From contig JAEOTP010000069.1 of the NCBI GenBank assembly GCA_016839765.1, positions 50,629 to 114,628 on the forward strand: a DNA stretch of 64,000 bases, given 5' to 3'. How positions within the stretch are numbered: the first letter of the stretch is position 1; every line of letters starts with the position of its first letter. The translations under genes and the position numbers were made by a program. The notes under the pieces were generated by a model. It was given only the letters and a program-made list of their open reading frames with translations. It was not told where the DNA came from and did no database searches. The DNA comes from Promethearchaeota archaeon (GTDB lineage Archaea > Asgardarchaeota > Lokiarchaeia > Sigyniarchaeales > SOKP01). Of the stretch, positions 54,856 through 60,900 are shown piece after piece.

Positions 54856-56142
54856 TTACATATTATCTGGTTTAAATTCTAGAAGTGAAGATCCACAATA
54901 CATACAGTAATTATTCTTGATATCGTTTTCATTATGACAATATGGGCATATTAAGTATCCGTGTTTCGGTTTAGCACGAATCTCTGGCTTTTTAGGTTCT
55001 TTAAATTTATGGGGTTCATATTTTCTATTTCTACTTAAGATTACATATAAAATTAATAAAACTCCAAGAAATATTGATAAAGCTCCAACAGCAACACTTA
55101 TTATGATAATAAAACTATTATCAGGCGGTATATATGGTGGGGGTGCATTAATTGAAAAGTATTGAATTTCTGATGCATATATTGTTCCAAGTGAATCATT
55201 TCCAAACACTTGAATATTGTGAACACCATTTGTCGGTAAAGGAAGTGTAGTATTCCCCACTATCGTCTTAGTGGTTAATCCATCTAAGGAATACCCCATC
55301 CAATCTAATGGCGTTCTGTTTACAAAACTCAGCAATAAACCTTCATTGAGATTATCTCCAATATTATAATTAGGATCCCATGAATAACCTACTGCATCTA
55401 TATAGTTGAATACGTTATCAGACCACGTTCTCATATCAAATTTAGTAATTGAAGTTGTGGTTGTACTTCTAAATCCATACCCACTTCCACCATCTACGCT
55501 ATTTTCATCGATCCAAAGATGCCAATCATCAGCACAGTCGAATTGTATCCTCACGTGATACCATGTGTATCCATTATACGACCCTACTGTTGTTGGAGCA
55601 GCTCCATTATAAACAACAAGGTTGCCATCTTCCCAATAAATAACAATTGTATCTTGGGGATTTTGGTCATGTATTTGAATCATTAAATAATCTCCTGAAT
55701 TATGTGGATAGTCTAAATAAATATAACACTCAATTATTCCGGTAGTTTGACTTGAAAATGTGTTAGATACTATTGTAGCTCCTCCACCTCCTCCTGCGTC
55801 TTTTAATTCAACTACCTTGTTATGCCCATCCATTTCTTCAACTACCTGGACAAATCCGGTGTAAGACGTAAAGAAAGACCACTCCTCTGGTATAATCCAA
55901 ATTTCATCATTTTCAAATCCGTAAGTAGCAGGATAATATCCGCTCATTGGCTCTGTATATGTTTTACTTTCTGGAGTAATAATTGAAATTTCATTATCAC
56001 TTGTTTGAAATGAATTATCTCCTTTACAATTAAGTTCAAAATTCTTGTTGAAACTGATGTTATTATTAATAAAACTACAACTAAAGGTAAAAACTACAAC
56101 AAGAAAGAATATAATAATTATAATATTCTTTTTTCCATTCAT
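54856..56142 (-). CDS. Secreted/surface LamG-like domain protein with C-terminal TM and zinc-ribbon tail
   Basis: N-terminal signal-like segment; lectin/glucanase-like module; FIIIISVAVGALSIFLGVLLILYVIL TM; ICPYCHNENDIKNNYCMYCGSSL. Confidence 0.75.
   Translation of the reverse strand: MNGKKNIIIIIFFLVVVFTFSCSFINNNISFNKNFELNCKGDNSFQTSDNEISIITPESKTYTEPMSGYYPATYGFENDEIWIIPEEWSFFTSYTGFVQVVEEMDGHNKVVELKDAGGGGGATIVSNTFSSQTTGIIECYIYLDYPHNSGDYLMIQIHDQNPQDTIVIYWEDGNLVVYNGAAPTTVGSYNGYTWYHVRIQFDCADDWHLWIDENSVDGGSGYGFRSTTTTSITKFDMRTWSDNVFNYIDAVGYSWDPNYNIGDNLNEGLLLSFVNRTPLDWMGYSLDGLTTKTIVGNTTLPLPTNGVHNIQVFGNDSLGTIYASEIQYFSINAPPPYIPPDNSFIIIISVAVGALSIFLGVLLILYVILSRNRKYEPHKFKEPKKPEIRAKPKHGYLICPYCHNENDIKNNYCMYCGSSLLEFKPDNM
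55171..55980. repeat. Segmental repeat copy A (LamG-like module)
   Basis: Near-identical DNA blocks shared with 59724-60532, e.g. ggatcccatgaataacctactgcatctatatagttgaatacgttatcagacca. Confidence 0.85.
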
Positions 56143-56258: not shown

Positions 56259-57227
56259 TTATGTTGTAGGTTGAGCCCTTGTTATTATTTGAAGTGTTAA
56301 AAATGTTAATACTTCATTAAAATTTGACCTATTTATTTTGGGCATTTTGAAATAATGGGCTCCAATTGATTCTGCTAAAGATTGTCCTTCTTTCCATGAT
56401 ACTAATTTTGATTCTCCTGTTTCAATTAGAATTCTTGGCATCTCAACGGTAATTTTTGACTTTTTCTTTAGTTTGAATTTTAAGTCTGTTGCTCCCTTCA
56501 ATTCAGAAAAATATAATTTAATCTTTTCAAAAGACGCTGGATTATTATTATCATATGCAAATATTGCCCCACAACTACCTTTATAATAATTAGGCCTGAT
56601 AGACCTAAACTTAATATCACCTGACATATTCCACAAGTGTAATTTGACTAAAGTATTTTCCAAGACATTTCTTTCTGTCAATAAAAATTCAACTCCAATA
56701 GTTTGAGGCGTATATAGTTGGGTTTTAAAAAGTGGTGTAATTAATTCGTTTTTAAAAGGCACATCGAAACCTAGTAATATTATTTTGAGGGTAAAATCGA
56801 ATTTAACTCCCCACTCTTCAAAATAGGTTAAAAATCTTTTATATCTCTGAATTTTTTTACGTAATTCATACAATTGACTTCTCGCTGTGCTTGAGAGTTT
56901 TAATCCTGTAGCCCGGCGAATAACAGCTTCAGCTTGTCCTTGGCTGATGGTTTTATCAAATCTTAGATATAAATCATAAGCAATTTTTGAGATAACCCAA
57001 TCTAAATTGAATTTATTTAATAGATGTTGAATGCCTTTCCTTAAATTTTTATTTATGTTAGGGAATTCATTTTCATTAATGGAAATATTACTATATATAT
57101 CGATCTTACCTTCTCTAAATAAATCTTCTATTGTGTAATTAATTTTTGAAAGAAAGTTCTCCAAATTTTCTAATTGAGACTCGTTTAATTGATCATTTTT
57201 ATTTTTACCAACTTGAGTCATTTTCAA
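56259..57227 (-). CDS. Rab-like pseudo-GTPase with helical N-terminal extension
   Basis: FTLKIILLGFDVPFKNEL (degenerate P-loop), TIGVEF, LHLWNMSGDIKFRSIRPNYYKGSCGAIFAYDNNNPASFEKI, EGQSLAESIGAHYFKM; aligned by eye to Rab G1-G5. Confidence 0.75.
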   Translation of the reverse strand: MKMTQVGKNKNDQLNESQLENLENFLSKINYTIEDLFREGKIDIYSNISINENEFPNINKNLRKGIQHLLNKFNLDWVISKIAYDLYLRFDKTISQGQAEAVIRRATGLKLSSTARSQLYELRKKIQRYKRFLTYFEEWGVKFDFTLKIILLGFDVPFKNELITPLFKTQLYTPQTIGVEFLLTERNVLENTLVKLHLWNMSGDIKFRSIRPNYYKGSCGAIFAYDNNNPASFEKIKLYFSELKGATDLKFKLKKKSKITVEMPRILIETGESKLVSWKEGQSLAESIGAHYFKMPKINRSNFNEVLTFLTLQIITRAQPTT

Positions 57228-57399
57228 TCACTTAAGATTATTTTATATATTTTTTGTCCACATTATTTTTATATGTCCAATTAAGATTACTATGTCCATG
57301 ATAAAGATGGACATTTTCCTATTTAAATCTTTGTCAAAAAATTTAAAAAATTATAAATTTAAAGAAAAAAAAATTTGATTTTTGAATTAGAATATAATA

Positions 57400-57995: not shown

Positions 57996-60900
57996 TTATT
58001 CTTCTCTAGGTTTAAAATCTGCAAGTGAAGCTCCACAATATATACAGTAATTATCCTTGATATGGGTTTCACTATGGCAATATGGGCACTTTCTATACAT
58101 ATCTTTTACTTCAACAGGAGCTTTTAGCTTTTTAGGCTTTGGGGGTCGAGCATTCCTCTTTCTAACTAAAGTTATGATTAAAAAAAGTGCTCCTACTGCA
58201 ATAAATACGCCAATGGCAACACTGATGATGATAATGAGAGTATTATCAGGTGGAATATACGGTGGAGTACTTTTTTGAACAATTACATCCTCGTAATCCA
58301 TGTTTCCTGCTTTATCTCTCACGTAAAATCTAATTGTGATGGCCCCATCTGGCGCAGCATTCCATGCGGTTGAATCTATATACCCGGTGTACTGTGAAAT
58401 ATCATAATTGGTTAAACCACCATCGAGGGTATACCACATAGCATCGATATTAAGCTCATCAACAGAAATATTAAAACTTGGAGGTATAATTGTAAATTGA
58501 GCACCAAATGAAGGAGTATTAATAGTAATGACTGGATCAGTAATATCTTTGTTGATATTAATCTCAGCATAATTAAAACCTCCAAACGTATCATTTACAT
58601 AGAACCGAATTGTAATTGGCCCCTCACCTTGGCCATCCCATTCGGTCTGATTTATGGTCCCCGATGATCCTATGAAAGTAATATTCGTCCCGCCACCATC
58701 TAATGTATACCATGTAGTAATTTGATAGAAAGCTGTTATCGAAATACTAAAAGTTGGCGCAATATTACTGTAAAATTCATTATTTGAAGGTGTTATAATG
58801 TTAATGGATGGTGGGGGAACATTAATTGAAAAAAATCGAACTTCTGATTCATATATAGTTCCTAAAGAATCATTTCCGAACACCTGAATAGAATGAGAGC
58901 CATCACCCAAGAATGGAATTGTTAAATCTCCCAGTATCGTCTTATTGGTTAATCTATCTAAAGAATATCCCATCCAATCAAGTGTAGTTCTATTCATAAA
59001 ACTAAGTAACAATCCTTCAATAGAGTTATCTCTAATATTATAGTTTGGGTCCCACGAAAATCCAATAGCATCTATATAAAACAAACCTGTAGTTCCCCAA
59101 GCGGATCGAATTTCAAGACGATCTGCATCTAATGCATCAGTATGCGTGTAAGAATAATCATCTGCTTCTAAAATTCCATTAATATACACGTCCACAGTCT
59201 TCGTGGTTCCATTCCAACTAATACTGATGTGATACCACTGATCATCATAAAATGTTGGTCCAAAAGTCTGCCAACCACCTGGAGCACTATTGATATTAAA
59301 CCTGTTGTTATTATATTGGCTAACGTATGAATCGATGCCTAATACTGTTATGTATCTTGTTAAGCTAGTGTCGAGTAGTGAAATCCAAATTGGACAATTC
59401 CCGCTCTCTTTATATACCCATAACTCAATTATTCCGGAATTATGGTCGTCACTAAATAATTGATAAATTCCTGGATCATCGCCAGTGGAACCTGCGTTAT
59501 CGTTAACTTCTAACACTTTCTTATGACCGGCTTTCTCAGAAATTACTCTAACAGTACCAATACCAGGATCCCATCTTAACCACCCATTTGGCTCAACTCC
59601 ATTAATGTCATTCTCAAACCCATAAGTCGCAGGATAATAACCACTCATTGGTTCTGTGTATGTTTTATTTTCTGGAGTAATAATACTAATCATAGGGAGA
59701 TCAAGAGTAAAATGCCTTAGATTCGATGCATACATTGTTCCAAGTGAGTCATTTCCAAACACTTGAATATTGTGAGATCCATTTGCTGGTAAAGGAAGAG
59801 TAATATTTCCCAATATTGTCTTATTGGTTAGCCCATTTAAAGAATATCCTATCCAATCTAACCTCGGATAGTTATCAAAACTAAGCAATAAACCTTGATC
59901 GAGATTAGTTCCAATATTATAATTAGGATCCCATGAATAACCTACTGCATCTATATAGTTGAATACGTTATCAGACCATGTTCTCATATCAAATTTAGTA
60001 ATTGATGTTGTGGTTGCGCTTCTAAATCCGTACCCACTTCCACCATCTACGCTATTGTCATCAATCCAAAGATGCCAATCATCAGCACAATCGAATTGTA
60101 CCCTCACGTGATACCACGTATATGCATTATACGACCCTACTATTGTTGGAGTAGTTCCATCATAAACAATAAGATTACCATCTTCCCAATAAATAACAAT
60201 CGTGTCTTGTGGGTTTTGGTCATGTATTTGAATCATTAAATAATCTCCTGAATTATGTGGATAGTCTAAATAAATATAGCACTCGATTGTTCCAGTAGTT
60301 TGACTCGAAAATGTGTTAGATACTATTGTAGCCCCTCCACCTCCTCCTGCGTCTTTTAATCCAACTACCTTGTTATGTCCATCCATTTCCTCAACCACTT
60401 GAGCAAATCCGGTGTAAGACGTAAAGAAAGACCACTCCTCAGGTATAACACCATTTTCATCGTTTTCAAATCCGTAAGTAGCAGGATAATACCCACTCAT
60501 CGGTTCTGTATATATTTTATTTTCTGGAGTAAGGATTTCAATATAATTAGTAATATTAATCGTAAAGTATCTTAGATTCGATGCATACATTGTTCCAAGT
60601 GAATTATTTCCAAACACTTGAATATTGTGAGCTCCATTTGCAGGTAAAGGAAGTGTAGTATTCCCCGATATTGTCTTATTGGCTAGTCCATCTAAAGAAT
60701 ATCCCTTCCAATCTAACGTAGTGCTGTTATCAAAACTAAGCATTAATCCTTCTTGCATATTATCTCCGAGATTATAATTAGGATCCCAAGACACTCCTAC
60801 CGCATCTACCCAGATATTAGTGTTTAATACATCATTATACATAGTAATATATAAGCGATTCACAGTAGTTCCTGTTGCATGATTCGTAGCGCCAATTACG

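Follow-up and report, generated by a model that had tools for sequence, protein, structure and literature searches.

A Rab-like pseudo-GTPase of Lokiarchaeota downstream of a conserved operator array: a putative autoregulatory DNA-binding repressor

The window analyzed in our study, a stretch of 64,000 nucleotides, stems from a genome of the Lokiarchaeota in which about 70 matches to the Ras family were counted. On its minus strand it contains an intact open reading frame at 56259-57227. The first ATG is located at 57221 and opens a protein of 320 amino acids (coding part 56262-57221 of the window, minus strand); the listed TTG start would add two residues. The following features were assigned to the locus:

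56259..57221, minus strand: gene of the pseudo-GTPase and putative regulator, 320 aa from the ATG at 57221, with an alternative TTG at 57227
56274..56795, minus strand: Ras/Rab-like pseudo-G domain with a complete beta-alpha Ras fold (residues 143-316; pLDDT mostly 75-95; Foldseek)
56616..56633, minus strand: switch II equivalent WNMSGD with an eroded G3; W197 is retained from the aromatic triad of Rabs
56748..56771, minus strand: P-loop equivalent GFDVPFKN without G1; the family has the consensus GLxxEQSxxL here
56808..57005, minus strand: conserved helical module of ~65 aa, putative DNA-binding domain (residues 73-138: LDWVISKI..KTISQGQAEAVIRR..LSSTARSQLYELRKKIQRYKRFLTYFEEW)
56850..56942, minus strand: helix-turn-helix-like pair (residues 94-124; helices 94-105 and 111-138 in the AlphaFold model; residue 111 covaries with the operator)
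57255..57313, minus strand: operator array of four half-matching TGGAC/GTCCA sites at a centre-to-centre distance of 19 bp (57308-57313, 57293-57298, 57274-57279, 57255-57260)
57320..57327, minus strand: TATA box TTTAAATA; 15 bp separate its start from the first operator site centre

The protein begins with ~140-142 residues predicted to be helical, which are followed by a complete Ras/Rab-like fold. In Pfam, the Ras family was matched by residues 143-316 (E=4e-15, 56 bits, cut-off 21.6), and phmmer against the PDB detected Rab11 and Rab1 homologs at E~1e-14. An AlphaFold model built on 21 family sequences (mean pLDDT 80, pTM 0.55) showed an all-helical N-terminus and then the full Ras fold of six strands and five helices. 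Among the Foldseek matches listed for this model Rabs were on top, with Rab1b (4hlq) at E=1.3e-11 and a TM of 0.77 by target length. The first-pass annotation had proposed a Rab-like protein preceded by a helical extension of about 145 residues. Both the descent and the fold are supported by Pfam, phmmer, AlphaFold and Foldseek alike, the core segments it quoted are present in the protein, and the extension amounts to about 142 residues.

The same annotation had read GFDVPFKN at G1 and NMSGD at G3 and had seen no G4 or G5 motif. All of this was borne out, and the loss is common to the whole family. In an alignment of 19 family members with 37 canonical Ras-like domains from the genome of the window, G15, GK[ST], G4 N/K/D and SA[KL] were each found in 0/19 members, so that the idea of orthologs retaining GKS/T fails, whereas the first P-loop glycine was kept in 19/19. 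DxxG survives in a few members, and the window protein, in which neither G4 NKxD nor G5 SAK was found, has NMSG. Of the hallmarks of an active Ras/Rab GTPase it thus possesses the Ras fold and lacks G1 GxxxxGK[ST], G3 DxxG, G4 [NT]KxD and G5 SA[KL]. As the entire family shows this loss, it goes far beyond chance. The Rab-type aromatics persist (F in 17/19 and W in 18/19 members), and the position of Y212, the tyrosine of the triad, holds an aromatic residue in nearly every member of the alignment inspected by eye. Retention of switch II varies across the family; the ortholog G017 still carries WDVAGQERF, which points to a stepwise erosion of the motifs.

Orthologs were identified in 21 other Asgard genomes of Lokiarchaeota, Helarchaeota and Hodarchaeota. 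Full-length or nearly full-length relatives occur in 20 other Lokiarchaeota/Helarchaeota genomes, to which a profile added the Hodarchaeota genome; the related-locus search starting from the single protein had given no match before a profile was used. The orthologs form one clade (support 100/100) that is separate from all other Ras-like proteins of the genome and has no clear sister in the tree. In five close pairs dN/dS of the G domain was 0.10-0.29 with upper 95% bounds of 0.25-0.56, all below 0.6. Hence, the G domain is under purifying selection. Local decay was rejected because the motifs are lost family-wide and dN/dS is low, in line with the earlier statement, derived from the intact reading frame, that the gene is not simply decaying. 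Paralogs sharing the N-terminal extension had been suggested as a further check; a search with an N-terminal profile revealed none in the own genome and one copy per genome. In the open-licence papers searched we found no description of the family.

Residues 73-138 are the most conserved part of the protein. K90, I92, S93, G95, Q96, L109, R114, Q116, L117, R121, K123 and F134 are invariant in this module, and its best-conserved residues are polar or basic and lie on one helix. The helix-turn-helix-like arrangement rests on the AlphaFold model. The module matched nothing in Pfam, NCBIfam or the PDB sequences, including no HTH or other DNA-binding family. Profile searches located it in 29 of the 228 genomes of the phylum, two of the 29 being weak, and in several architectures, also without a G domain. 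In G053 and G060 (L018, L019) one polypeptide comprises CDC48_N and CDC48_2, the module, the pseudo-GTPase and, fused in frame, a canonical Ras GTPase, while G055 has the same GTPase fusion without CDC48_N. In G168 the module stands between CDC48_N and a zinc-ribbon-like end, and a Ras GTPase gene adjoins. In G166, which belongs to another Asgard family, the module makes up nearly all of a ~107-aa protein. G167 (L116) has two module genes in tandem, of which one or both carry a zinc-ribbon-like segment; no operator was detected there. Every CDC48_N match in the own genome lies in an open frame as long as that of an AAA-ATPase. The earlier interpretation was right as to descent, motif loss and selection; it had missed that the N-terminal half is a distinct module with an operator array.

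An array of TGGACGTCCA sites with a strict 19-bp period is located upstream of nearly every family gene and holds across the Lokiarchaeota, Helarchaeota and Hodarchaeota orthologs. A conserved palindromic operator is thus present at the own promoter. In the array of the window gene, TGGACA is repeated directly at sites 2-4, and the 19-bp phase is maintained. Three-site scores at period 19, best per promoter, were 17-25 of 30 for the non-fused Lokiarchaeota/Helarchaeota orthologs and exceeded 200 shuffles of each promoter, weakly so for G022/G015 (17 vs 16). In G060 and G055 the array precedes the GTPase-fusion operon, and in the Hodarchaeota gene it is found farther upstream. Ahead of its TATA box, this Hodarchaeota promoter (L085:20-75) carries additional TGGAC/GTCCA sites. 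Among the 18 promoters measured, most have 15 bp between the TATA start and the first site centre; the remaining ones had 16, 17 or no matched TATA, and G009 has a variant site.

The combination TATA-15-GTCCA was found at 17 distinct loci in the 550 kb scanned, 16 of which lie directly upstream of a module gene or operon. The 17th, in G053, abuts an assembly gap. This array (L236:4995-5070; C1:917430) lies beside a DNA methyltransferase-like gene and the gap, which hides the gene it drives; the gene of the fused pseudo-GTPase is 1.86 Mb distant. In the own genome there is a single triple array, and two full sites with at most one mismatch were present in five genomes only of the 83 searched, all of them carrying the family. 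Strict 19-bp patterns gave no further targets in the own genome. Additional TGGAC-N14-TGGAC pairs, considered as secondary targets there, were dismissed, being near the estimated chance rate.

On the sequence evidence, the operator follows the module and not the G domain, because the stand-alone module gene of G166 and the module locus of G168 carry comparable sites as well. In G166, TATA-15-GTCCA-N9-TGGAC is positioned just before the start codon. At its GTPase operon, G168 has GTTTAC-N7-GTAAAC units in the 19-bp layout of the TGGAC arrays; two are perfect and two others have GTGGAC as one half, compared with 0.24 in shuffles. For the module proteins of G167 and G172 an operator array was absent or undetected. 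Moreover, every ortholog with TGGAC half-sites has S or T at residue 111, which opens the second helix of the helix-turn-helix-like pair, whereas G009 (TGGGCGCCCA) has N and G007 (TTGACGTCAA) has A at this position. In the whole protein this is the sole column that separates G009 and G007 in this way; within residues 108-124 such a column exists for 3 of 190 pairs, the other two of which are sister pairs. This covariation with the half-site, seen in two variants only, is suggestive of residue 111 as a putative DNA contact.

As first proposed, the protein might be a nucleotide-independent scaffold. In this case it would bridge partners as a scaffold or adaptor in the lokiarchaeal small-GTPase network, with the helical part as a protein-interaction module and another regulator on the operator. 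The loss of all G motifs with retention of the fold and the aromatic triad, the purifying selection, the fusion to a canonical GTPase and the joining of the module to CDC48_N domains are all in agreement with a scaffold. However, operator and TATA spacing follow the module across genera, architectures and a stand-alone module protein, its top-conserved residues are polar or basic on one helix, and one residue of this helix covaries with the operator. We therefore consider a pure scaffold unlikely. Since the module tracks a conserved operator array, the data point to a DNA-binding regulator with an appended sensing or docking domain; judged from sequence, the scaffold reading is incomplete and a DNA-binding autoregulator is the stronger one. 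Against the autoregulator speak the missing match of the module to any DNA-binding family, the reliance of the HTH-like arrangement on a model, the weak array in G022/G015, the array absent or undetected in G167 and G172, the G053 array apart from its gene, the small number of two operator variants behind the covariation and the lack of further own-genome targets with the strict 19-bp patterns; a co-inherited separate regulator could bind the array instead.

Alternatively, the 5' repeats could act as RNA, with leader GTCCA/TGGAC hairpins bound by the protein in a translational autoregulation. In archaea transcription usually starts ~25 bp downstream of the TATA, which should place most of the array in the transcript, and many arrays can pair as GTCCAT-N7-ATGGAC. 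Nevertheless, with 15 bp between it and the TATA start, the first site is placed ahead of a typical start site, and sites 2-4 of the window gene, as direct repeats, cannot pair with each other although they stay in phase. It is the spacing that is conserved and not the pairing, which makes an RNA mechanism improbable. Similarly improbable is a weak switch, a pseudoGTPase of class ii/iii, in which the G domain binds GTP or another nucleotide non-canonically: switch II is partly kept in some members such as G017, and Rnd and RGK are degenerate GTPases that still bind nucleotide (PMC5593906), but P-loop GK[ST], G4 and G5 are lost in every member, which removes the phosphate and base contacts.

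Taken as a whole, the protein is probably an autoregulatory DNA-binding repressor with a pseudo-GTPase domain for partner sensing or docking. The ~65-aa module would bind the tandem palindromes 19 bp apart, which would overlap the start site of the own promoter so that the own gene is repressed. The Ras/Rab-like domain, presumably devoid of normal nucleotide binding, would serve as a docking or sensor domain of fixed conformation that has kept the Rab-type aromatic surface (F179, W197, Y212). It may couple repression to a partner, most likely a canonical Ras-like GTPase of the clade that one lokiarchaeal genus co-transcribes and fuses with it.

For this partner, a GTPase of the fused and co-transcribed clade is probably the best candidate. 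In the tree, the GTPases at the C-terminus of the G053, G055 and G060 fusions fall together with the GTPases C10:7195/7778/3225 of the own genome. In G060 and G055 the same-strand gene ahead of the fusion gene, itself situated behind the array, encodes another GTPase of this clade. The clade is present in 24/24 genus members; co-distribution was thus discarded as partner evidence, being uninformative when every genome of the genus has the clade. A model of the fused protein (pLDDT 77, pTM 0.49) was too weak to judge a G-G interface. The conserved neighbour clusters #1 and #5 were rejected as partners because they are syntenic but not co-directional; cluster #5 is longin-like by eye and matched no Pfam family.

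Autoregulated one-component HTH repressors are known in archaea and bacteria. They share with the system proposed here a palindromic tandem operator over their own promoter, a helix pair that resembles an HTH in our AlphaFold model, and a separate sensor domain, putative in our protein. In contrast to them, our module matches no known HTH family and the sensor would be a Ras-like pseudo-GTPase. p190RhoGAP pG1/pG2, CENP-M and the fungal dynein LIC are class i pseudoGTPases (PMC5593906) and, like our protein, show a Ras-like fold with all G motifs degraded within a larger conserved protein; however, they are eukaryotic and have neither a DNA-binding module nor an operator. Asgard and archaeal Rab-like GTPases, described as nucleotide-binding (PMC4915359, PMC10933270), have the same fold and Rab-like switch and aromatic residues and occur in the same genomes, but they keep GK[ST], NKxD and SAK, whereas our family is a separate clade. 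A small GTPase system is also tied to a DNA-binding protein in the MglA Group 3 neighbourhood with its receiver and winged HTH (PMC4316618); unlike here, these are separate proteins, the MglA is of the bacterial type and the regulator has no pseudo-GTPase domain.

Asgard genomes encode dozens of Ras-like GTPases each. The family would give one of these GTPases a concrete, testable output, namely a promoter whose operator is defined, together with a regulator carrying a dead Ras sensor, and binding can be tested directly with the operator sequence, the covarying residue and the fused partner. If true, it would place a Ras-type signal directly onto DNA in archaeal relatives of eukaryotes. The family also documents the recruitment, in these archaea, of pseudo-GTPases, which have mostly been studied in eukaryotes. 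Module, TGGACGTCCA/19-bp operator code and a pseudo-GTPase reading the state of a canonical small GTPase may even, as a tentative suggestion, constitute an undescribed class of Asgard transcription regulators.

Besides, other Ras-like domains without GK[ST] are encoded in the own genome (C60:20204-20695, C39:477-890, C65:3009-3416). One, in a membrane-anchored protein of 319 aa, is sister to the canonical C67:141327, and two that are nearly identical to each other have Cys-rich tails; such domains seem to be common there, as pseudo-GTPases. The neighbouring genes at 54856-56142 and 57996-61580 on the minus strand encode predicted surface proteins with related repeats (YTEPMSGYYPATYGFEND), both with a membrane helix followed by C-terminal zinc-ribbon-like motifs.
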